This document shows, piece after piece, positions 24,608 through 42,637 of a DNA stretch of 49,058 nucleotides; position 1 is the first letter of the stretch; each line of letters starts with the position of its first letter. The notes under the pieces were generated by a model. It saw nothing but the letters and a program-made list of their open reading frames with translations, was not told the DNA's origin and did not search any database. The DNA comes from Candidatus Altimarinota bacterium (GTDB taxonomy: Bacteria > Patescibacteriota > Gracilibacteria > BD1-5 > UBA2023), in assembly GCA_028689245.1 (NCBI GenBank), contig JAQTWO010000001.1:1-49058 (forward strand), read 5' to 3'. Both the position numbers and the translations under genes were made by a program.

Positions 24608-25033
24608 CTAGACTATTTCCCAATCTTCAATTTCCCCTTCTATAAGGGAAAAACTCGGGTGGAGTCGAATCGGAGAAGATTCAAGCAATGGAATCCTCTC
24701 CGGATTACGAACCAAAAGTTTTCGTCGTAAATGACTCTTCTCGTATGAGATCTGTCCCGTAGTTACTGCGATGTCCTGAACTGGATAACATTTTTCAATT
24801 TTGGAAGCATCGAATACATATCATCGTTTCGTGGCCTCTGTCACAATCTCCGAAAGATAGTAACCAATCGCCCCAATAGGATTGGGATGAGCACGAAAAC
24901 GGATAAGTTGTGGATGATTTTTATATCCTTTTGTCCGATTCTGGAGGACTTTTTGAGCTAAAAGACCCTCTCTCCAAACAGCGAGCAGTCATTGTCTATC
25001 AAGATATGAGGGGTGAAGTGACCAGAGTCGCAT
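24608..25033 (-). CDS. Pyrimidine dimer DNA glycosylase family protein
   Basis: A 141-residue protein whose start MRLWSLHPSYLDRQGLLA and following WREGLLAQKV and GYKNHPQL are the signature of the Pyr_excise family (T4 endonuclease V-like domain; many bacterial members are uncharacterised). RFRAHPNPIGAIGYYL continues the family pattern. Two TGAs are glycines, one in the signature (RQGLL). If active, it would excise UV dimers. It ends a minus-strand series with dcd and leuS and lies 13 bases from the acidic protein gene. Confidence 0.85.
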
Positions 25034-25046
25034 ACGTTATGATATT

Positions 25047-25256
25047 TTATTCATCGAAATAAGCTCCGCTCGCATAGATATCGTCATCCGCATTCGGGTC
25101 GAATGTTTGGAGTTTGTGTCCAGCATTCTCTTCTTCTTCCAATTCTTCAACGTCATCCAAAGTGACCTCTAAATCAAGCTCATTATCCATTACTCATTCA
25201 TCATCAAGAAGAAGTTCGTCTTCTTCTTTTTCGTCTTTCTGAAACGGTGGAGTCAT
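25047..25256 (-). CDS. Small acidic protein
   Basis: A 69-residue protein, very rich in Asp and Glu (KEEDELLLDDE, EELEEEEN), split by one TGA at codon 22. No known domain. The ATG is 33 bases downstream of dcd and the stop is 13 bases before the glycosylase gene, so it is probably cotranscribed. An acidic tail-like protein could be a binding partner or regulator, which is speculation. Confidence 0.6.
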
Positions 25257-25289
25257 AGGTATTAAAAATGAGAAACTAAATACAGATAA

Positions 25290-25835
25290 TTAACCAACTT
25301 TTTTTTCAACGAAACTATTCCAATTATTTTCATGATATCTGCCGACTTTATCGTAGGTTTTTGATGAGGGAGAGGAAAGCATAGAAAAGGTTAACTGAGC
25401 TATCTCCATCTTTGGTCTCAATATAATTGGTATATTATTGAGATTACTGAGTTCAAATGCGATATTGAGAAAATGTCCCGGATTGATAAGTCCTGCGGTA
25501 TTATGCACTACAAGTCCTATTCTTGCAAGGCTCGATTTTCCAGAAAGTTGTATGAGATAATGATTCGATCCAAAATAATCCCATGAAAAACCGAGAATAC
25601 TCACTCCAGGATGGAGGACGAATTCCTCCCCGTCCTCTATATGTACCTCTCTCATCTGAGGAAGTATTTTTCGAGCCGGATCAATGATGGGAGTTAAATG
25701 AGAATCCGTAATCAAAAATTTATTACCAAGCAATATATCATATGATGCCGCCTGAAGTCTTTTTTCGTCGAAACCTTTCAGAACAATCTCTCAAGACTCC
25801 ACCCCTTTTTTTATATCGATATCGGAAAGATACAT
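25290..25835 (-). CDS. dcd: dCTP deaminase / dUTPase-like
   Basis: A 181-residue protein of the Dcd/dUTPase superfamily. MYLSDIDI and LQAASYDILLG match the Dcd N-terminus; GKSSLARIGLVVHNTAGLI corresponds to the SSxxR triphosphate-binding motif, and NIAFELSN to the strand with the catalytic Glu. The start at 25833-25835 is needed for the N-terminal motif and includes one TGA (VESGEIV). It supplies dUTP, and so dTMP, in pyrimidine metabolism. It lies between leuS and the acidic protein gene. Confidence 0.88.
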
Positions 25836-25995: not shown

Positions 25996-28900
25996 TTATT
26001 TCGCCACGATTCCATAGAGTTTATTTGGAACAAATATCTCTCGAACTATCGTGAGTCCATCCAGCCATTTGTTGATATCTGGGTCTTCCATGACTCGTGC
26101 TGCAACTTCTTCTTGAGAAACTCCATTGAGGAAGGTATGCGTTCCTCGAAGCTTCCCATTGATCTGAATAGCAATCGTCACTTCGTCATCGACGAGCATG
26201 AAATCCTGATATTCTGGCCAAGTAGCGTTGAAGACAGACCTCACCCCCTGCCCCTCTCCATCCATAGAGAGGGGGGTTTGATGTATTTTTCCTCCCTCTC
26301 CACACGTGGAGAGGGTTGGGGTGAGGTAAGACCAAAGCTCTTCCGCCAAATGCGGAGCAAATGGATGAAGCATTATAGCGAAATTCTCTTTCCATTCTTG
26401 TGCGCTTTCCGCATCTTTCGGAAGTCCTTCATTTACAAGGATCATGAGAGCAGCGATGGCAGTATTGAACTTGAATGCCTCGATGTCTTCACCGACCTTT
26501 TTGATGGTCTTGTGCATAAGCTTCATGGCTTTCATGTCATCCGTCGCAAAGCGTGGAGTTTCGAAGATGGCATACGCCTTATCAAGGAATCTTCGAACCC
26601 CGATGATAGCCTCTGTGTTCCATGGAGCAGAGTCTCGAAAATCCGCCATATACATCTCATAGAGACGGAATGTATCCGTCCCGTGTTCCTCGATGATAGA
26701 ATCTGGATTCACCACATTTTTCAGGCTTTTGCTCATCTTTGCGACGATTCTCTTTACTTCTTTTCCGGTAGCGGTTTCATAGAATTTTCCTTCCCGCTCT
26801 TCCACGAGATCGATGGCAACCAATCATCCATTTTCCCGTTCGTACGCATAGGAAAGAATCATCCCCTGATTATGGAGTTGTTGAAATGGCTCACTCGTCG
26901 GAACCACTCCTATATCGAAAAGGAATTTGTGCCAGAATCGTGCATAGAGCAGATGAAGAACGGCGTGTTCCGCTCCACCGACATAGCTATCCACATTCTG
27001 CCAGTATTTCAATAATTCTGGATCGACGATATATTCTGTATTGGCAGGGTCCATGAATCGGAGATAGTACCAACAAGAACCTGCCCATTGTGGCATAGTA
27101 TTGGTCTCACGCTTTCCTGTAAGATTGCTCGCAAGTTGTATATTTACAAAATCTGGAACCAATGCGAGTGGACTATTTCCGTCACCTGCTGGCTCAAAAT
27201 TCTCCACTTCTGGGAGCTCCAGCGGGAGGTGGTAATCGCAGATGATTTTCCCATAGAGTCCGTCGTAGATTTTGGAAACGACTTTTCCTCCAATTACGAG
27301 CTCACGAACTTTTCCACCGCAAGTCGCTCATACGGAACATTCGTCAGTAATCTCGTCTCGTTTGAGAATATAAGCAAGATTCACATCGGTTGCCTCAGAA
27401 ATATCGGAAATATGCGGAAGTTTTTTAAGGTCTTCGATTTCGAGGTGGATAAGCGGAATCGGTTCCCCCCAATATCGCTGACGAGAGAAAAGCCAATCAC
27501 GAAGTTTGTAATTGGTTTTCTTCTTTCCAAAGCCTTCGGATTCTGCTTTTTCGGCAAGTTTTTCGCGAGCTTCGGCAGAAGTGAGCCCAGTGAATTCGGC
27601 AGAATTTACGAGGATTCCATCTTCAGTAGTTATCTTCTTTATGTCTCTAATCATTCTTTCAATAGCATTGGCTTGGTCTTGTTTATTATTTTCCTCAAAA
27701 TCTTTTATAAGTTCATCGACTGGTACCCAAACTAATTCTACATTGTCATCATAATTATAGTCACTGATTTTCTCAATGTCTACATCTACAGAAAATATAT
27801 AATGAAGCATTGTTCTATCTGCTTGTTTTGGCTTCGAAAACCAATTCATTTGATAGACTCATAATTGATTCATTGCCTTTACAGAAACTCTAAGCTCTTC
27901 TATAATTTCCCTTGATAGACTTTCTTCTGGCTCTTCTCCCTCCTCGATTCCACCACCGATAAGTAAATATTGTCCATTAAATTTTGTCGAATCAGCCTTT
28001 GAAGATAGTTTTTCGCATAAAATTTTTCCATCTTTCATAATCACTGCACCAACCCTATCTCTTTTTTCAGAATTTTCTTTAAATACTCCGAAGGTTAGAG
28101 CAATACTCTGTTTTATCGGCAACCCCATCTTCTTCGCGAACTCAAAATCTCGTTCATCATGAGCTGGAACTGCCATAACCGCTCCCGTTCCGTAGGAACC
28201 GAGCACATAATCCCCTATCCAAACCGGGATTTGTTCTCCGTTAAAAGGATTCACAACATAGGAACCAGTAAAAACTCCCGTTTTCTCTTTTCCTTCGTTC
28301 GTTCGTTCGAGATCGGATTTTGCCTTGGATTCAGCGATATATTTTTCACAAGCAACTCGCTGCTCTGGAGTTATCCAGTTGTTCACATCTTTATGATCGG
28401 CTGCGAGCACGACATACGTCATCCCGTAAACCGTGTCTATTCGGGTGGTATAGACAGAAATAATATCTTCTGTACGAGAGTTTGTTTTTTCCTTGATATA
28501 TTTCATAAAGACCGTCTTCTTTAGGATTGCCGATTCATCACAAGGTTTGTTATACATAGCATAAATTCCTCGAATTTTTTCCATCTGAAAATCTTTTGGC
28601 GTATCGAGTTTTATGAATCAAAAATCATGATAATATTCCTCCAATTCTTTATCGCAGTCAATATAGAATTCGGTATTATTTGAGTGGTGGATGAGATGGG
28701 CAAATAATTTATATCAGAGTTTTCTTCCTCGAAACTCAGGATATATATACAGTCATCCGATATCAACAGCATCGTTTGTTCCATGTATTCTTGCAAAACC
28801 AACCATCTTTCCTTCTTTCTTCGCAACGATAAATTGCTCTTTTGCAAATTTATACGTATTTGCTTGATCCGCATTTTTTACCCGAAGAATTTCCTGAAAA

Positions 28901-29655
28901 TCTTCATCTGTCGCACCACTATAGGAAAAATCCTCTGCTCTTTTCAAAAAGAACTCCACCCCTTCGCTCTTCCCTATCCAGTTTCGTTGCATATCCTTAA
29001 TTCCTTCTGGCCAATCCAGTGCATCCACATCGGTCAAGAGTCGCTCTGCATAGGCAGTGATTTTCAGTACCCACTGGCGAATCTTACGTCGTTCCACACG
29101 AGTCCCACATCGATCACAGTTATTGTCTCCAACTACCTCTTCGTTAGCAAGTCCTGTCTTGCAACTGGGACAATAGTTGATTGGTAAATCTTGTTCGTAC
29201 GCAAGTCCTGCCTCAAAAAGCTTCAGAAATATCCACTGAGTCCATTTGTAGTACTCTGGATCTGTTGTTGCAATCTCACGACTCCAGTCATAGGAAAAAC
29301 CGAGTGAGAGAAGCTGACGTTTGTAATTGGCGATATTTTCATCGGTAATCTTTCTCGGGTGTATCCCTGTTTTGATCGCATAGTTTTCCGTCGGGAGACC
29401 GAAACTGTCCCACCCCATGGTGTGAAGCGTGCGAAATCCCTTATTGTGTTTGTAACGCGAAACGATATCGCTCGCTATATACCCTTTAGGGTGACCAACA
29501 TGCAGTCCTGCCCCCGACGGATATGGGAAAAAATCAAGCGTATAATATTTTGGAGTATCGAAATCCGAAGGCGTAACCGGATTGGGGGTTGCAAATACTT
29601 TGGTATCTTCCCAAAATTTCTGCCATTTTGATTCGATAGATTTTGGATTATACAT
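25996..29655 (-). CDS. leuS: Leucyl-tRNA synthetase with embedded GNAT-like and Nudix-like domains
   Basis: A 1219-residue protein; bacterial LeuRS is usually about 800-880. Canonical parts are in order: HVGH at 52-55, zinc-type [13 protein letters not shown], editing-domain TTRIDTVYG near 403 and [18 protein letters not shown] near 490, VNSAEF near 683, KMSKS near 974, and the C-terminal domain. Between SEGVEFF and TTR lies a GNAT-like segment (about 240-350: [15 protein letters not shown] is motif A). Between GLPIKQ and the VNSAEF element lies a Nudix-like domain (about 528-675: [13 protein letters not shown] then REIIEELRV, with Arg for the last Gly of the box). Six TGAs, three inside or at the edge of the GNAT segment. 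A palindromic repeat adds about 30 residues near the end. The start is the ATG at 29653-29655. First gene of the dcd series. Confidence 0.93.
26239..26326. repeat. GC-rich palindromic repeat translated within leuS
   Basis: CCTCACCCCCTGCCCCTCTCC at the left and GGAGAGGGTTGGGGTGAGG at the right are complementary, with two small hairpins (CTCTCC...GAGAGG; CCACACGTGG) between. It is translated into about 30 residues ([11 protein letters not shown] and STCGEGG) in the C-terminal part of LeuRS. Confidence 0.8.
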
Positions 29656-29831: not shown

Positions 29832-30176
29832 TTATTTAACAAGTGACTCGATAACGAACTTGATGATAGAAGAAGCGATGAAGATAACAAAGAGTCCGAG
29901 AACAGCATTTACGAGAATCTTCTTCCCTCATTTTACTTTGTCGTCATTTCCACCGGCAGTGAGTATCTGGAACCCTCCGTAAAGAGCGAATGCAACCGCT
30001 ATCAGGTAGAGAAAATTCGTTGCAAATGACATGAGTGACTGAGCGGCAGTCGGGAAATCATCAGTACGTCCTTGTAATCGTGAATCCACTCCTCCTGGAC
30101 TAATGGCCGCAAAAGACTGTTCAAGAGAAGCAAGAGTTGCAACGGAGATAAAACCAACTTTTTTGAGTATCTGCAT
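29832..30176 (-). CDS. TrbC/VirB2 pilin-like membrane protein
   Basis: A 114-residue protein: signal peptide (about residues 1-24, ending SFA), a short exposed segment, then two membrane helices around a conserved turn (GGFQILTAGGNDDKVK, followed by a TGA glycine). This two-helix pattern with the GG-N-D-D-K-V turn is typical of pilin-like proteins common in CPR genomes, grouped with conjugal TrbC/VirB2 pilins. The N-terminal part of the giant protein at 36896-42355 is a paralogue of it. No secretion genes lie beside it. It has its own promoter (30210-30238) and terminator. Confidence 0.78.
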
Positions 30177-30209
30177 ATTTATAAAGTTATGGATATAAGT
30201 AACTTCGGT

Positions 30210-30238
30210 AGTATATAGAAGCAATGCCAAAAAGTCAA
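30210..30238 (-). promoter_or_regulatory. Promoter of the pilin-like gene
   Basis: TTGACT (30233-30238), 17-nt spacer, TATACT (30210-30215) on the minus strand. The best sigma-70-like match in the window, giving a leader of about 27 nt without a Shine-Dalgarno. Confidence 0.75.
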
Positions 30239-34525: not shown

Positions 34526-36877
34526 TTATTCTTGAATAACTATCTCACGATCTGTGGATCTGACCGTTCTGTCTGAATAGGTCACGGTAATCTTGATTTT
34601 AAATTTTCATGCGGATTCATACGTATGGGTTGGGGTAGCTTCTTCAGAGATTATACCATCCCCAAAATCCCACTTGTACGCCTCTATCTGCCCAATAGTG
34701 CCATCGGTATCAAAATCGATCGGTTTTCCAACTATACCAGACGATACGCTCGTATGAAGCATGATACGTTTTGGGGTATCTTTTATAACTATTTTTCTGG
34801 AGGATTGGTCCCGGGCTCCGTCATCACGGACAACCGTGAACGTAAGGGTATATTCTCCCGGATTAACATATTTGTAATCCTGAACGGCATCTCCTTCAAC
34901 AACTCAATGACCATCTCAAAAATCATATATGAATTTCGTGATCGTACCCTGTTTCGGACTACTTGCGGATCAGTCCACATGAATGGTGGCAGGAGCGTAT
35001 TCCGAGTCTTGCGTAAGATTGAGAGACAGTGATATGTTTTTCTTTTCTGGTTCGAAGATAACCTTTTCTTCCAAAAAAGCCGTAATGTTTTTATCTTTGT
35101 ATTCAAAAGTATAGCGTACTCGGAATGTGTAACGTTTTTCCTCGATGAGCTCATATTTCATAAGTGCTCCTGACCCCTCAAATATGCCATCCCCATTAGA
35201 ATCCCACTCTACTTTCGCGAGATGATATCAATAATTTTCTACTTTTACATCCGTAGCATCAAATTGTATGGAGAGGGGTAATGAAATAGCTATGTCTTTG
35301 ATATAGTAGGCTTCAAGTGCTCAATTATACGAGTTGTCTATAAGGGATTTTCCCGACACATCGCTGACTTTCAAAAGAGACATGGTATGAGGTCATTTTG
35401 AGAGCATGAGCGGTGGATACGTAACAAAAGTATCGGTCAATTCGGTGGTATTTCCAGCTGAATCGGTCAATGTAAGAAGTACTTTTACGTCTCCATAGGT
35501 GGGAAAACGATATATAAAAGACTCACTCATAGAAACGGACATATTGTTAATCTTCCATTCATAACGGACGATCTCTCCGTTTTTTATCGTCCTATCGGTA
35601 AGATGAAAGGAATATGCGAGCGGGTCCGCCTTGTCTTGGTCATGGATAATTTTTCCATCGACGTGTGAATCTGAGATTTGTGGGACTATGAAAAGTTTAT
35701 CACAATTGGTTCCATCAAAGACGCTCAAGCAGAGTATCTGTCAAACATCTTTCATGCTCATGGAAAAAGTATCATCACTGCTGATAACCGAGAGATTATC
35801 GTCTTTTTCCGTAAGCCAATGGATTTTACCGAAATTTTTGAGTTTCGATGCATTGTAATTGACAATTTTATCATTGCCGGTTTTTGGGGACTGAATATCT
35901 ACCACTCCGATAATCTGGATGGTTTGAAAATTGATGGGAAGCGAGAGTGTCTTATGTGTCAATCTATCCACTCCATCGTATCTCCCCGTTGGTTTAAAGA
36001 CTTTTGCTTGATCAAACGTACAAATAATACTCTGATCGTTCTGAGGGTTTACTCCTGTGACACGAGAGGAAATTCATCATTGACACTTTGCACCGTCAAA
36101 GTCGATTTCATAGCTATCTATATCCATTATCTTCGCTGCAAGTCCCGCATCTGCTTTGAGGTCGAATTTGAGTACCAGCGGACCGATGAGGTTTTCAAAA
36201 TTCATCATCCTCGCTTCATTTTTGAATCGCTCGGAAGTGAGTTTCTCGTTATCATACACGAGGACTCATCCGTTTGGATTCTCATAGTCCGTTGCGCTAA
36301 TTTGTTTTTCAAGAAATGCCCAAAGAGTAATCTCAGAGAAAAACAATACCCCAATAAATCCTGCAAGGATAATAGAAATCGTCTTTTTTTTCTTGTATTC
36401 TTTTTTCGTGAGGATGGCCTTGAAAAGATAAATAATCCAAACAACTGCCAGAATGAAAGTAGCGATCCCAAATATCGCTCGGACCAATTGTTGAAGCCAA
36501 ATGGTAATATCTCCCGGATTGATACCGAGAGACAGAAAAAAGCTTGCCTGTCCTGGATTGAATACGATATATGCGAGAAATGCCCCAAAGAAGATGAGAG
36601 TCACCAGCAACATTGCTCAAACCAACCGGAGAAACGTCCCGGTATTTATCGACTTCTTCGGTATTTTTTTCGTGGATTCTGATGGCGGAGCATCTGGCGA
36701 AATTACGGATGTTTCCAATGTCGTGTCAGTGGATGAGACAACTTCTTCGATAAATGATTCCGATAATAAATCTACCTGAGAGGGGGAAGTATTTTCAGAT
36801 GCCAAAATATCACCGAGAAGACTCCCCGATGTATTAGGAGAGTCTTCTTTGAGAAGGTTTTCATTATTTTGAGACAT
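34526..36877 (-). CDS. Large membrane protein with PKD domains
   Basis: A 783-residue protein read through twelve TGAs. The first ~86 residues are acidic and cytoplasmic; three membrane helices follow (AMLLVTLIFFGAFLAYIVF, then two more, to about residue 195); the rest is an exposed region with PKD-type Ig folds. The last two are clear: FIYDFGDGHG (both motif glycines written TGA) and YKWDFGDGII followed by THTYESAGKF. A segment VEWDSNGDGIFEG resembles a calcium-binding loop. It starts 18 bases after the stop of the 1819-residue protein, so they form an operon. Probable role: cell-surface adhesion or attachment apparatus, inferred from PKD content. Confidence 0.85.
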
Positions 36878-36895: not shown

Positions 36896-39800
36896 CTATT
36901 TAAGCCAATCAGGGAGTTCCTCGGAATCAACCGGGATAACTGGTCATTCTGATACGATCGGCTCGAGTTTCGGCTTTTTGACACGGAGCTTAGGGGCAGG
37001 CATTTCAGAATCCGATGATGGACTCTGTTCTGGTTCCGATTTTTGTTTCCGTTCCGATTTTTGTTTTCAGGCAGTTTTTATGTGCGTCTTTGACGGGGTT
37101 GATTCTCATTCTGATTCCTTGATTATCGTTTCCTCGGATTTGATCTCCTTGGACACTTGAGGCAGAGAAATTTCTTCTGCAGGGGGAAGAACCTCCTCCT
37201 GTGTGACGGACGGTTGAGTCACTCCCTTGAGCCAATCCGGAATGTCTTCATAGGAAGTATCTTCTCTTTTCGGAGAGAATGGTGGTGATTCCAGCTCTTT
37301 CTGTACTTCCTGTTCCAAAGAAGCGGAATCTATTCCCTGCATCCATGCAGGCATTTCAGAGATATCATTGGTTGTAGTAGCCGTATCTCACTCCGTTGCA
37401 ACGGTTTCTGTGGAAAGTGGCATATCGACCACAGAGGAGACTTCTGCTCACTTGAGCCAATCAGGAAGCTCGGAAGCAATGGGAGTTTCTTCGTTCGTTT
37501 GCTGTAGATCCGGTATCGTTTGCAAAGGTTCTTCTTCAGGAGTGGCAAGTGCCGAGACTGGGGCTATTGTCATACTGGGAGTGGGAGTCTCTGCCTTTGT
37601 CTCATCTCCATGCACATGTGCAGAACTGAGACTCGTGGATTCTTTGAGCCAATCAGGAATGACAGCGTCTTTGATTTCTGTGGATTCTCCAGAAGGAACA
37701 GAGGCAAGTATATCGGTGTTCGACGGAGGAACGACTGGATTTGTGACGGGAATATTTGCAAGTATATCTTTTTGCATACTCTCCTCTTTTTTTACCGGTG
37801 ATGTCTCCACGACAATCGATGCACTATAATCTGCAGTCTTCGGCGGATGTTTCCCCGACAATTTATCGATGATGAAATCCTGAAACCCGATATTGTCATC
37901 TTTATTGGATACCTTAAAATAGATAAAAACAAGCAGGATAAACCCGGATAGCGCCAGAAGTACGTATCCAAAAATCTTTCCGAACGTGAGGACCCAATCC
38001 AGGATGCCTGAAGAGCTATTTGTATCGGGAGGAACAACGGTTGCCGGAATATTATTCTGACCTCCGTAGATGATAGTCTGGAGTTGTGACTTGATGGTAT
38101 TTTTATCTTTTAATTCAATAGCGTTGTCATCTTTGATAGCATTCAGGATAAATGTACCGAGTTCTTTATTGAGAGTGGTATTTGTTGGATGAGAGATAAT
38201 ATCATCGATATTCTTGATAATTTGGTCATAGGAAGGATTGGTTTTCGGTATGAGGGATTTGAGCACCTTGGTCGCGAGTCCAACATCGCCTTTCGTCTGA
38301 GTATCCGAGAGGATAAATCCATCGAGAAGAGAATAAAATTTATCCTTTGTTGCCGCATCGAGTGCGGAGTTCGTACCGAGGTATGCTTCAAAATCGACGA
38401 TAGTTCTTGTCTTTTCACGAGCGTCGAACCAATTCTCTTGAAGGCTTGCAAAAAATTGCATCATCTTCAATCGATCCTGTTCTTTTGCACTCTTGATAAG
38501 ATCTTTGAGCGTTTCAAGATTCGTCTTATCAATACTGGAAATGTCTTTCGGAAGTTCTGATCCTGTTCCGGAAAGATTTTCCGGAACGATTCCTGTAATA
38601 AAATCGTAGATTATCTTGATATCTTTTGTGGCGATAACCGTATTGTTTGCATCATAGAGACTTAAACGCATGGTCTTTTCTTTGGCGGTCACATCAGAGC
38701 TTTTGATCGTGAATACACTGCCGTTAATGGAGGAATCCGTTCCTTTATTGTCTATGTCATCCGTTGGATCACCATTGAGATTGGAATCAACAAGGATATC
38801 CGTATCGATTCCATATTTGGCAATACTTGCATTTTTTGATTCTCCGAGATAGATGGAGAGCGAGTCGGCACTATTGGTAATATGTATCGTATCTTGATCC
38901 GCGGAAGGGTAGGTGAAGAAGATAAGTTTATCCGTTGACTTTTTGACTTTCATCGCATTGACAACATCTCGTCTCAAGGTTGCACTCGTACTCTTGGTTA
39001 CGGTTCCATCGGATACTTCCAATGTAATATCTCCCGTCACACTCTCGTTTCCGAAATTGTACAGAAAAGAATCGGAGCTATCGGATGTTACATCCGCAAT
39101 CGACCACTTCGCCTTGGTGTAAAGTCCTTTGGTAGTATTGAGGAAGATAAATTTATTACCGATAGCGATATATTCGATATTGGGTTCGATTTCGTTCTTG
39201 ACGGTAATGGCTTGGTATTTCGTATTGGAGATACCCTTATACGTTACCTTTATCTTGAAATTGAAATTCCCTGGCTTATCATACACATGGCTCGCAGTAG
39301 GAGTACTGGTAGTTTCCTCATAGAATCCATCACCATTGTAATCCCATTTGTATTCCGCTTTGGACGCAAGATCAGCACCGAGAATGTTTTTGGCACCCAC
39401 CGTGAAATCTATTTTTTGACCGACCGATACGCTATTTGCAGAAGTCTTGAGGGAGATGATCGGGGTATTGATATTATCGGAGGCAAGTGTCAGAGCATAC
39501 CGCTCAGTACTCATATCATCGCTATTTACCTTGAGTCCGTTAGAATCTTCCAATATAACCGCAAAATAATACTTTGCACCTACGCGGGGGAGGACAAATA
39601 CGGTCTTTGGTGTTCTAGTGATACGGAAGTCCTGTGGCTCCGGATCTTCTTCCGTGTAATAATACCATATGTATGATGCGATAGCCCCATCGTCATCCAC
39701 GGCATTATTGGCAGTAACCGTAACAACTACCGGATCAGCATCGAGTTTATCGGTCGTCACCGTGAGAGATGAGAGCTTCGGAGCAAGATTTTCAACCTTC

Positions 39801-42355
39801 ACGTATGCTCTGGTAGTATCCTGGGCTCCGGTCTTTTGACTACGAACCGTGAGACTTACAGGAAAACATCCGAGTTCGTCGAATTTATAACTGAAATCCT
39901 TTTGAGAAGAATTTCGTGTCCCATATTTCCAAGTATACGCTATCCCCTGATTGGTTCCATCGGTATTGACACTATTTTCAGCACTCATAGTTACCGCTTT
40001 GGATCGGTCGATAACAAAAGCCTCTTTGCCATCGCATGCATCAGGTGATGGGATAATCTCTTCGTTGTCCCATTTGAGAGCGATAATCGCGAATGGATTG
40101 GTACTATCCATGACGTATACCTTCCGGGTGATGGAGTTACTATCCGATCCACGTCCGCGAACGGTGAGATTCACGGAATACGTTCCGGCCTTTTTATAAA
40201 CGTGATTGACTCTTCCTGTCGTACTTGTATCGGTCTCTCCATCTCCGAACTGCCATTCAAATACTTGAGCTTCTTTGGAATCTGCAATCAGAGAGATGAC
40301 AGATCCGACTTTTCCTATCTTTGGGGAAGTGATGAGCTTAACGGAGAGGAGTGAGTCAATGTTTACATCTTTGTTATAAGAAACCGTTTTCCCATCTTTG
40401 TTGGATCATTCCAGTGTTATTTTGTGAGTTCCAACCGTATCGAATGTATATCGTCCAATTGCACCATTTCGTGCAGGATTCGCAAGATCCGTACGTACAC
40501 CGTCAATTATCCAAGAAAAGTTGAGATTGGCAGAGTCCATATTATCAGGATCATAACTTCTGGTTCCATCGAGAATGAGAACATTGGGAGATTCGGAACT
40601 CACGGATTTGGCATCAAAGGATACGACGGGATCGTGACCCTGTATGTTGATACTAATGGTATCTATATCCTCTTTGCCATTCGATGCGAGGGTTCTGAGT
40701 TTTACTGAATATCTTCCGGTTCGTGGGAATTTGTACGTGATATTTTGAAGATCAGATGTAAATACTACTTTCTCCCCCTCCGATTCCACAATCTGCCATG
40801 TATATCCCAGATTGGATATCATCGCCGAACGAGAGGCGCTGAATCGAAATTCGTCACGAGGAAATCCCTCGATCTTGTCGGCTTGGATGCTGGAAATTGG
40901 ATCTCGTATTTCGATATTGAGCTCCTTTGTGACTTTGTGGTTTTCATTGGTGATGAGTTCCATTTTGAATCGGTAGTTTCCTTCATTGTAGTAAATCTGT
41001 CGATCCAATGTTGGTGCACCGTTATATTGGGCAACATTCCCGTTTCCATACTCGAAACGAGTAGAAACAAATTTCGTACCGGCAGCAGATGTGGAACCTG
41101 TCGGATCGATCATGAGCCCTTGTCTTCCTTGTGCAGGAGTAAATTTAATAGTATCCAGGTTGGAAACATAAACTCCATTGATAGCAAGGGAGATATTTCC
41201 AAGCTTCGGGAGCACGTTTACATTTATGAAACCATCAAACGGAAGTACATCCGTTTTTCAGAGCTTATTACGACTCGCAGAAATGATATTCAGAAATACC
41301 GTATAGGTACGCTCTTCCGTAAAAGTATGGTTAATAGACGGCCCAGTTCCGAGAACAGACATCTGTCCATTGGAAGCACGAATCCACCATTTATAGTTGT
41401 CTTTCGGTACGGTAACTCCGGATGGATCGATTACTTCAGCCGCTCGGAGAGTCACGGTAAATGGGGCATTCCCCGATTCCGGTGATGCGATGATCTTCCC
41501 TTTGATACGGTTTACTTTCACTTTTGTGAGATAGGCACTCAGATTCTGTGCGAGGTTTGCGATAGCCGTATCGGAATCTGGGTTCTTTTTCACTACTTCG
41601 ATAGCGGTGATAAGAGAATTGGCAAGATTCATATTAAAAACAACGTTGTCGGAATCGGGAAACGTCTCCATGGAAGATTTCACGAGCGTGGTAAGGGTTC
41701 CAAGCGTTTTTGTAGTAATCTTATTATTTACCTGATATTCACGATCCAGTGTCGAACTCAGGAGCTCAATCTGTTTTTTGTAATTATCAAAAGTATTGAG
41801 ATCATATTCCGTGTAGGCATAGGTTGTTTGTATAAAGGAAGGAAATTCAAACAGTGTGGCACCGGAATTTCCCGTATTCAATACGCCTCAGCCATTTTTT
41901 CCTCCAATAAAAAATGTGACGATGGAATACGCGAGGAATATAAGGAAGAATCCGATAATAACATGGAAAATAATAGATTTCGATTTCTTAACCTTGTCAT
42001 CGTTTCCTGCCGCGGTCAGAATCTGGAATCCTGCATAGATAATATACGCTACTCCTACCACCGAGAGAAATACCAGAAGATATGCGATGATATCCTGTAC
42101 ATACTGAGAAAATTTCCTATTCTTTTCAATATCATTTATATGGGCACTTACCACCTGGGTCCCTCGATCGATAGAACAGTACGTTGCAGAAGCGGGATCA
42201 TTGCTATTGCAGTAATCTATCTGTGAAGAACTTGAGCAATCCGTTCCAAATATGCTACATACAGCAGAGACCGGAGTGAAAAAGGAAGAGAGAAGGATTC
42301 CGAGTGTCGCAAGAAGGATAGGAAAGTGTATTTTTGATTGTGAAAATATACGCAT
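36896..42355 (-). CDS. Giant surface protein: pilin-like N-terminus, PKD repeats, transmembrane segment, cytoplasmic PDWLK-repeat tail
   Basis: An 1819-residue protein assembled across eight TGAs, all in one frame with no TAA or TAG. A signal peptide (about 1-31), a Cys-rich stretch, and a two-helix pilin-like module (IYAGFQILTAAGNDDKVKK, paralogous to the 114-residue protein at 29832) come first. A TGA at 41888-41890 leads into about 1,300 residues with several PKD-like domains (FEWQFGDGE, YKWDYNGDGFYEE, FSWIIDG). A membrane helix lies near 1453-1480 (GYVLLALSGFILLVFIYF). The acidic tail carries recurring PDWLK/PAWMQ motifs, ending in PDWLK. Likely a surface filament or attachment protein; the tail motif may bind a cytoplasmic partner. 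With the standard code it would appear as several proteins. Confidence 0.82.
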
Positions 42356-42386
42356 CTGAAGTACATTTAATAAATAATATGCTTTG

Positions 42387-42415
42387 ATTCTAGCACATAT
42401 GAGAATAAAAAGCAA
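42387..42415 (-). promoter_or_regulatory. Promoter of the giant surface-protein operon
   Basis: TTGCTT (42410-42415), 17-nt spacer, TAGAAT (42387-42392) on the minus strand; leader of about 25 nt. Supports the start at 42355 over longer readings. Confidence 0.7.
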
Positions 42416-42581
42416 AAAAATACCATATGTGAAATTGATTACAAAGAAAAATCTCATATCCCACGACAACGTATGTCCAGAACCGAACTGATCGACGTTC
42501 GATATCGAGTCGGAACATTTCTCAAGCAAAAGATGATGGAAAAGACCACATCAATTTCATTTGAGTATATATGAAAAATCA

Positions 42582-42637
42582 CAATAGACAAAAAAGACGA
42601 TCGCCAAAAAATGGAAAATCGTCTTTTTTGTCTATTG
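42582..42637. terminator. Long perfect hairpin terminator after rnj
   Basis: A 20-bp perfect stem (CAATAGACAAAAAAGACGAT and complement) with a 16-nt loop, internally A6/T6, about 100 bases after the rnj stop. The stretch 42416-42738 holds no gene I can support; a short plus-strand ORF at 42470 (MSRTELIDVRYRVG) has plausible codons but runs through the hairpin. Confidence 0.8.

Follow-up and report, generated by a model that had tools for sequence, protein, structure and literature searches.

The locus described here raises the question of whether enzyme domains lodged inside a leucyl-tRNA synthetase (LeuRS) protect the synthetase or are just its passengers. The gene lies in a 49,058-nt stretch of contig JAQTWO010000001.1 from a Candidatus Altimarinota bacterium; this whole stretch is called the window, and all positions are counted in it. 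The gene product was confirmed to be a complete bacterial LeuRS with an added domain in each hinge of its editing domain, GNAT on the N-terminal and Nudix on the C-terminal side. In our judgement, it is probably a normal synthetase to which probably active guest enzymes are tethered, in two permissive hinges with fast turnover.

The synthetase gene and its inserts

Read in genetic code 25, the LeuRS gene starts with ATG at 29655 and reaches its stop at 25996. The frame of 1219 residues contains six TGA codons, all glycine, and is otherwise free of stops, and the plus strand of the same interval is interrupted by them. A second in-frame ATG is present upstream, at 29832, but the alignment with Thermus LeuRS starts at residue 2 of the 1219-residue form. 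The following features carry the argument.

25996-29655, minus strand: LeuRS gene, 1219 codons and a stop (TIGR00396)
28939-29655, minus strand: residues 1-239, catalytic N-terminal half (HVGH) and zinc region up to NWIGKSEG (motifs, Pfam, Thermus alignment)
28570-28938, minus strand: residues 240-362, GNAT guest in the N-terminal hinge of the editing domain, site A (PF13673, PF00583)
28714-28731, minus strand: GNAT acetyl-CoA loop RGRKLG, residues 309-314, last Gly encoded by TGA
28618-28620, minus strand: TGA codon that encodes Gly346, a position with Gly in 34 of 35 aligned rows
28096-28473, minus strand: residues 395-520, editing domain, from TTRIDT (PF13603, 1.4e-54)
27676-28062, minus strand: residues 532-660, Nudix guest in the C-terminal hinge of the editing domain, site B (PF00293)
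27889-27957, minus strand: Nudix box, residues 567-589, last Gly of the box replaced by Arg
26725-26739, minus strand: KMSKS motif, residue 973

The protein scored 961.8 bits against NCBIfam TIGR00396 (bacterial LeuRS, cut-off 548.4) and was the sole match above this cut-off in the window's genome, a draft that is 92% complete with 5.6% contamination. A HIGH-type motif (HVGH), KMSKS, and the connective peptide 1 (CP1) editing domain with GTG and HDERD are all present. Further landmarks are VGFARIHG at residue 285, SVYTTR at 400, the editing-domain block at 489, GGGIEEGEE at 567, and VNSAEF at 683. The uninterrupted code-25 frame of 1219 residues with LeuRS motifs had been proposed in a preliminary description of this DNA; its coordinates are right, and the gene is on the minus strand. 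Passages of one paper describe a reassignment of CGG in some Gracilibacteria (PMC8629427); the three CGG codons of the LeuRS gene are all that it would affect here.

The alignment with Thermus LeuRS falls into four stretches with three breaks, two of which coincide with the GNAT and Nudix inserts (query residues 236-398 opposite Thermus chain 233-242, and query 518-672 opposite chain 362-373). The third break, at query residues 741-808, is a group-specific stretch of LeuRS. An AlphaFold2 model of residues 189-734 reached a mean predicted local distance difference test (pLDDT) of 73.0 and a predicted template modelling (TM) score of 0.63, with editing and Nudix blocks at pLDDT 69-96. Its editing part was matched in VIA to Thermus LeuRS 1obc with Z 26.9 over 228 residues at 2.7 A and 48% identity. 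The GNAT came out at low confidence in this model, as it is absent from the other rows of the alignment. No Hint (splicing, intein) domain was matched by Pfam in either insert at E up to 1.

When the segments were cut out, both guests exceeded the Pfam cut-offs: the GNAT with PF13673 (E 6.5e-12, 46.0 bits, cut-off 23.6) and PF00583 (7.1e-11), the Nudix with PF00293 (E 3.5e-14, 53.4 bits, cut-off 21.1). The segments called GNAT-like and Nudix-like in the preliminary description are thus real domains, and the structure prediction suggested there, done with AlphaFold2, folds both of them. That description's placing of the inserts at CP1 junctions, with catalytic and editing cores preserved, agrees with Pfam, TIGR00396, the Thermus alignment, and the models. 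As judged from these motifs and the modelled editing domain, the LeuRS host would charge and proofread as usual, and each guest is predicted to fold as a separate module in the hinges between editing domain and body.

The GNAT guest and its kin

A separate AlphaFold2 model of the GNAT with 34 relatives had a mean pLDDT of 82.7. In Foldseek, it resembled ElaA (E 4.0e-8, TM 0.53), N-acetylglutamate synthases of ArgA type, and many other GNATs. The acetyl-CoA loop, for which the usual pattern is R/Q-x-x-G-x-G/A, reads RGRKLG; its first pattern Gly is replaced by Lys, likewise in most aligned relatives. The two most conserved glycines of the domain (34 of 35 rows) are both encoded by TGA, which argues that the GNAT has been maintained for some time under code 25. 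Going by the residues kept, it probably still acetylates an amine with acetyl-CoA.

In the LeuRS and GNAT searches of Patescibacteria genomes, a GNAT within LeuRS was found in the window only. The window's genome has less similar GNATs but none similar to the guest at E<=1, which speaks against derivation from another GNAT of the same genome, and no relative of the GNAT segment was found among viral contigs. A GNAT search of 286 Patescibacteria genomes gave matches in 17, the window's included, in frames of 634-1029 residues. The eleven other loci that were translated (L075-L085) read as UvrC, and they read through in the standard code. Pfam placed the GNAT between both parts of the RNase H-like domain in the four UvrC loci analysed, and two of the GNAT-bearing UvrC loci scored above the NCBIfam cut-off for UvrC. 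With a GNAT profile, 127 of 242 genomes of the class had matches; among the matches listed, all 29 loci besides the window's are UvrC by motif (L237-L264 and L266 are among the GNAT-UvrC loci), some of them from genomes already in the earlier UvrC set and with the hosts of the weaker rows checked in part. GNAT-inserted UvrC appeared common in families of the window's class. One mixed alignment, which had set UvrC GNATs on the editing domain, was discarded.

Further kin comprise free proteins (about 150-175 residues) and a domain in RecG, from a genome of the window's order, where the RecG stretch is partial and scores below the full-length NCBIfam cut-off. In the GNAT tree, the window's domain grouped with the UvrC GNAT of L075, from a distant family (support 83/67, long branches), and the enclosing group with RecG and free GNATs had support 88/84. 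A UvrD-like helicase/nuclease (L272:370-3861) contains a different GNAT (7.4e-12) in its C-terminal helicase domain; it was considered as kin of the window's GNAT but falls outside that group in the tree.

These hosts bear on the possibility that the guests are coupled to LeuRS and destroy leucyl-adenylate-like inhibitors or faulty intermediates, as a built-in antidote or extra quality control, the GNAT by acetylating the amino group and the Nudix by cleaving the phosphate link. A precedent exists in MccE, a GNAT that acetylates inhibitors of the aminoacyl-nucleotide type; the portions of PMC4964394 on this point describe both MccE and RimL as active on microcin-type aminoacyl nucleotides. This precedent speaks for the coupled function. 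The likeness to ElaA and ArgA-type amino-acid acetyltransferases also speaks for it, although shared with many other GNATs, as do the many guests around the editing domain of class Ia synthetases, although the queries favoured such hosts. On the other side, the same GNAT group resides in UvrC and RecG, where no aminoacyl-adenylates need guarding; the HAM1, HAD, methyltransferase, DUF559, and ASCH guests of other LeuRS do not fit a single chemistry; and about half of the LeuRS in the order have no recognised guest. Coupling is therefore regarded as distinctly improbable. Roles on aminoacyl-adenylates, misacylated products or by-products, and sensing, all raised in the preliminary description, gained no direct support, and the kin in UvrC and RecG weakened the case for the GNAT.

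The Nudix guest

The Nudix region of the AlphaFold2 model consists of blocks with pLDDT 69-95. As LeuRS filled all 50 VIA rows shown, the evidence for the Nudix fold comes from Pfam and the model. The acidic residues and RE of the Nudix box are kept, and its last Gly is Arg; the full pattern is taken here to be GX5EX7REUXEEXGU. The profile of Nudix guests matched MutT-type Nudix enzymes, best 2azw (1.8e-14), with Ap4A hydrolase (2.6e-9) among others, and matches of this type do not reveal the substrate. The residues kept suggest that the domain probably still hydrolyses a nucleoside-diphosphate-type bond with Mg2+.

Nearest to the window's Nudix is the LeuRS Nudix of L010, with 31% identity and E 6e-16. 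A free Nudix of the window's genome matched at 3.5e-5 only, so an origin from it is less likely. In the tree, the window's Nudix stands weakly with L010 (Shimodaira-Hasegawa-like approximate likelihood ratio test 68), and one long branch of an own-genome Nudix lies beside them. A free-looking Nudix frame with a LeuRS-type linker (L291:165-725) groups among the LeuRS Nudix domains and has perhaps escaped from LeuRS.

Guests in the order of the window's genome

LeuRS were compared in 55 of 59 genomes of the order, the window's own included and the fragments G002, G006, and G030 counted. G017, G023, G025, and G052 were left out (two without fetched LeuRS, two with fragments only). Guests were called by profiles built from the inserts, with Pfam run on representatives, and 53 LeuRS sequences were aligned at the insert sites. 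Fragments aside, the open frames are from 842 to more than 1500 residues long. Inserts occur at four sites, namely the two hinges (A and B), site C after the catalytic WGEPIP, and site D near the C-terminal domain.

Guests were found in 27 of the 55 LeuRS: Nudix in 21, HAM1-like domains in 7, serine-hydrolase-like domains in 6, and the GNAT in the window's alone. Pfam on the representatives backs these names, except for the serine-hydrolase-like guest of L066, which is just below the cut-off. Hinge A of relatives holds the six serine-hydrolase-like domains and two domains without family name, hinge B holds 20 Nudix besides the window's and one unnamed insert of 138 residues, and site D holds the HAM1-like domain in seven relatives. 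At site B, 32 of the 53 aligned LeuRS have a short loop of 17-84 residues instead of a guest. None of the six other genomes of the window's genus showed a recognised guest (in two of them, the LeuRS is a fragment), and the five with readable site B have stretches of 17-55 residues without mutual similarity. Guest-sized inserts without convincing Pfam match were seen in L044 and L048 (site A), L044 (site C), and L055 (site B), and by eye in L232 and L234-L236 (site B); several of the site-B ones seem to form a single small family. For the order, a census of Nudix and GNAT hosts was unfit for host counts, as the frames there seem cut at TGA.

The location of both guests in hinges connecting the editing domain would also suit regulatory sensors, which would respond to bound acetyl-CoA or nucleotide by moving the hinge. 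In relatives, the same hinge is home to different folds, and the residues kept are catalytic and not merely binding ones, so such sensing is very unlikely.

Guests across Patescibacteria

With a profile that runs from the end of the editing domain through the Nudix to the next LeuRS motif, Nudix was detected at site B in at least 38 of 286 Patescibacteria genomes, the window's included, when matches covering most of the profile length were counted. In a named collection, 24 of 80 loci kept have a Nudix guest in LeuRS, in L139 at another site; the Nudix-LeuRS loci are labelled Gracilibacteria, Taylorbacteria, Paceibacter, Saccharibacteria, Magasanikbacteria, and others. The preliminary description knew of no LeuRS with this arrangement. 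This holds for the GNAT, found only here, but not for the Nudix, which many Patescibacteria LeuRS have at site B. Nudix-LeuRS were also seen in drafts labelled Bacilli, Clostridia, or Pacearchaeota (L130-L132, L123, L125, L129); the Nudix of L123 and L125 group with Patescibacteria Nudix, and these two may be misbinned.

Some hosts carry several guests. A Taylorbacteria LeuRS of 1735 aa has three Nudix, a hydrolase, and a HAD domain, and another LeuRS of 1795 aa has HAD, two HAM1, Nudix, and a nucleotidyltransferase-like domain. An IleRS holds a serine hydrolase, Nudix, and histidine phosphatase, and a ValRS holds a Nudix guest. The host names of the ValRS, the IleRS, and these two largest LeuRS are above NCBIfam cut-offs. 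Further LeuRS guests are HAD, methyltransferase, ASCH, DUF559, and nucleotidyltransferase-like domains. Serine-hydrolase matches in frames of at least 900 residues numbered 11 (192 genomes), ten of them in LeuRS. The eleventh (L217:1208-4183) has, by eye, the serine hydrolase between two glycosyltransferase domains, with an NCBIfam match below cut-off.

Catalytic residues, turnover and codon usage

The Nudix helix [RK]ExxE[EK] was retained in 78 of 81 guests. Of the 31 serine hydrolases, 30 have the active serine (24 by pattern and six read from exceptions), and the guest of L066 has lost it. In a rough FastTree tree of 187 LeuRS, which includes LeuRS of other phyla and rows partly picked for having Nudix, at least 37 changes of the Nudix state and 18 of the serine hydrolase state were counted. 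The tree, order, and catalytic-residue counts include a few genomes reached by two routes.

These data also bear on whether the domains are passive insertions in tolerant loops, that is, decaying passengers or spacers only. The short loops that replace the site-B guest, palindromic repeats in the same sites, the L066 guest without serine and below the Pfam cut-off, Nudix guests that miss the full box, and the patchy presence all agree with passive insertion. It is countered by the catalytic helix or serine kept in most guests, by one broad Nudix guest family held in distant families of the phylum, and by the two conserved GNAT glycines kept via TGA codons. Passive insertion, proposed in the preliminary description as another option, is weakened by this retention of catalytic residues and is considered unlikely.

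In the window, G+C content at third codon positions (GC3) is 0.28 in the GNAT, 0.23 in the Nudix, and 0.44 in the LeuRS core, with both guests below every core stretch of the same length. TGA encodes 4 of 17 glycines in the guests versus 2 of 67 in the core (p 0.014). Site-B inserts of at least 100 residues had GC3 below that of the host in 21 of 21 LeuRS, the window's included (Wilcoxon p 9.5e-7, rows related), and TGA glycines made up 156 of 274 in these inserts versus 350 of 1209. Site-D inserts were lower in GC3 in 7 of 7 (p 0.016).

The difference in GC3 between guests and core would fit an assembly or binning chimera, as would the single draft genome and the presence of the LeuRS GNAT in no other assembly. 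However, one open code-25 frame crosses all borders, the same hinges are used in independent assemblies, and the TGA-glycine codons within the guests agree with the host's code. A chimera is hardly credible.

Interpretation

Both guests come from pools of enzyme domains that Patescibacteria take up in frame time and again, swap, and lose again in permissive loops of essential enzymes such as LeuRS, IleRS, ValRS, UvrC, and RecG; this pattern is observed, and the mechanism of capture is inferred. Location inside an essential gene would fix the dosage of a guest and protect it from deletion in a small genome. A single chemistry that takes care of aminoacyl-adenylates is argued against by the varied guests in one hinge and by the GNAT common to LeuRS and DNA-repair enzymes.

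Several observations weigh against tethered active guests in permissive hinges. No guest was recognised in 28 of the 55 LeuRS of the order, and the LeuRS-borne GNAT is known from one draft genome. The GNAT loop has Lys where Gly stands in many GNATs, and the window's Nudix box lacks its last Gly; the full box was matched in 64 of 82 Nudix guests, nearly matched in 7 (the window's included), and failed in 11. The low GC3 of site-A guests (7 of 9, p 0.13) is not significant, and most short site-B loops are likewise low in GC3, which may therefore stem from weak constraint and not from import. As hosts were found via LeuRS-, GNAT-, or hydrolase-based queries, their range is biased. Finally, the site-B Nudix domains form a family of their own with extra conserved K and N residues, from which the window's copy diverges; hence they may have a LeuRS-linked job rather than mere parking, and this family may be tied to LeuRS more closely than other guests.

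Tethered, probably active guests in a normal synthetase nevertheless remain our preferred explanation. More tentatively, Patescibacteria essential enzymes could serve as general housing for roaming enzyme genes, entered by in-frame insertion into a few permissive loops, with guests (Nudix, GNAT, HAM1, serine hydrolase, HAD, and others) active while tethered. Guests would be protected there because imprecise deletion kills the host gene, a life like that of inteins without splicing. We hold this wider proposal possible but doubtful.

Palindromic repeats and neighbouring genes

One further element lies within the LeuRS gene, at site D.

26238-26327, minus strand: palindromic repeat of about 90 bp read in frame, near residues 1110-1140

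The repeat has CCTCACCCC...GTGAGG ends and two hairpins; its end motif has 33 matches in the genome (up to two mismatches) versus 2 for the reversed control. Repeat-like peptides of PHPNPLPEGEGE type were seen by eye in LeuRS sites A, C, and D of L041, L017, L014, L010, L031, L028, and L040. A DUF559 endonuclease-like guest (3e-29) occupies site C in L067:2430-3362, and the peptides on either side of it resemble these repeats, which DUF559 might move.

Neighbours on the minus strand (24608-25835, 29832-30230, 34526-36877) include a pyrimidine-dimer glycosylase, a dCTP deaminase-like protein, an upstream type IV secretion pilin, and a PKD-repeat protein. Very long open frames overlap on opposite strands at 36896-42607 (minus) and 38882-42370 (plus), and the plus-strand frame had no Pfam match at E<=0.001.

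Comparison with known systems

Synthetases with extra domains are known. Whole catalytic domains of many unrelated families nested at the hinges of an editing module would be a novel way for very small genomes to carry genes, and one domain family common to a synthetase and to enzymes of DNA repair is part of the novelty. The many different guests at these joints in related bacteria might represent a so far undescribed manner of keeping genes within genes, and they point to natural insertion sites in LeuRS. None of the papers listed in searches of open-licence literature describes, in its title or abstract start, a Nudix or GNAT inside LeuRS or UvrC.

With bacterial LeuRS (TIGR00396; Thermus 1h3n/1obc), the window's protein shares the core domains, CP1 editing domain, and KMSKS, but where Thermus LeuRS has 8 and 10 residues between aligned stretches, it has 161 and 153 (GNAT and Nudix with linkers). 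NCBIfam NF040702, isoleucine--tRNA ligase with N-acetyltransferase domain, is likewise a class Ia synthetase named with a GNAT; it is IleRS and not LeuRS, however, and the window's protein scores 53.1 against it (cut-off 1999). The Nudix LeuRS of Patescibacteria (L116 Gracilibacteria, L121 Paceibacter, L126 Saccharibacteria) use the same hinge, in many cases with a similar linker, but no GNAT was found in them and the window's Nudix is divergent from theirs. UvrC with an inserted GNAT likewise has a related domain inside a housekeeping enzyme, but the host there is a DNA-repair nuclease and the loci read through in the standard code. Rickettsia palindromic elements, according to the parts of PMC10969869 that treat them, are short stretches of palindromic DNA that have entered protein genes in frame; they resemble the repeat at 26238-26327 and, unlike the guests of LeuRS, add short peptides, not folded enzymes.

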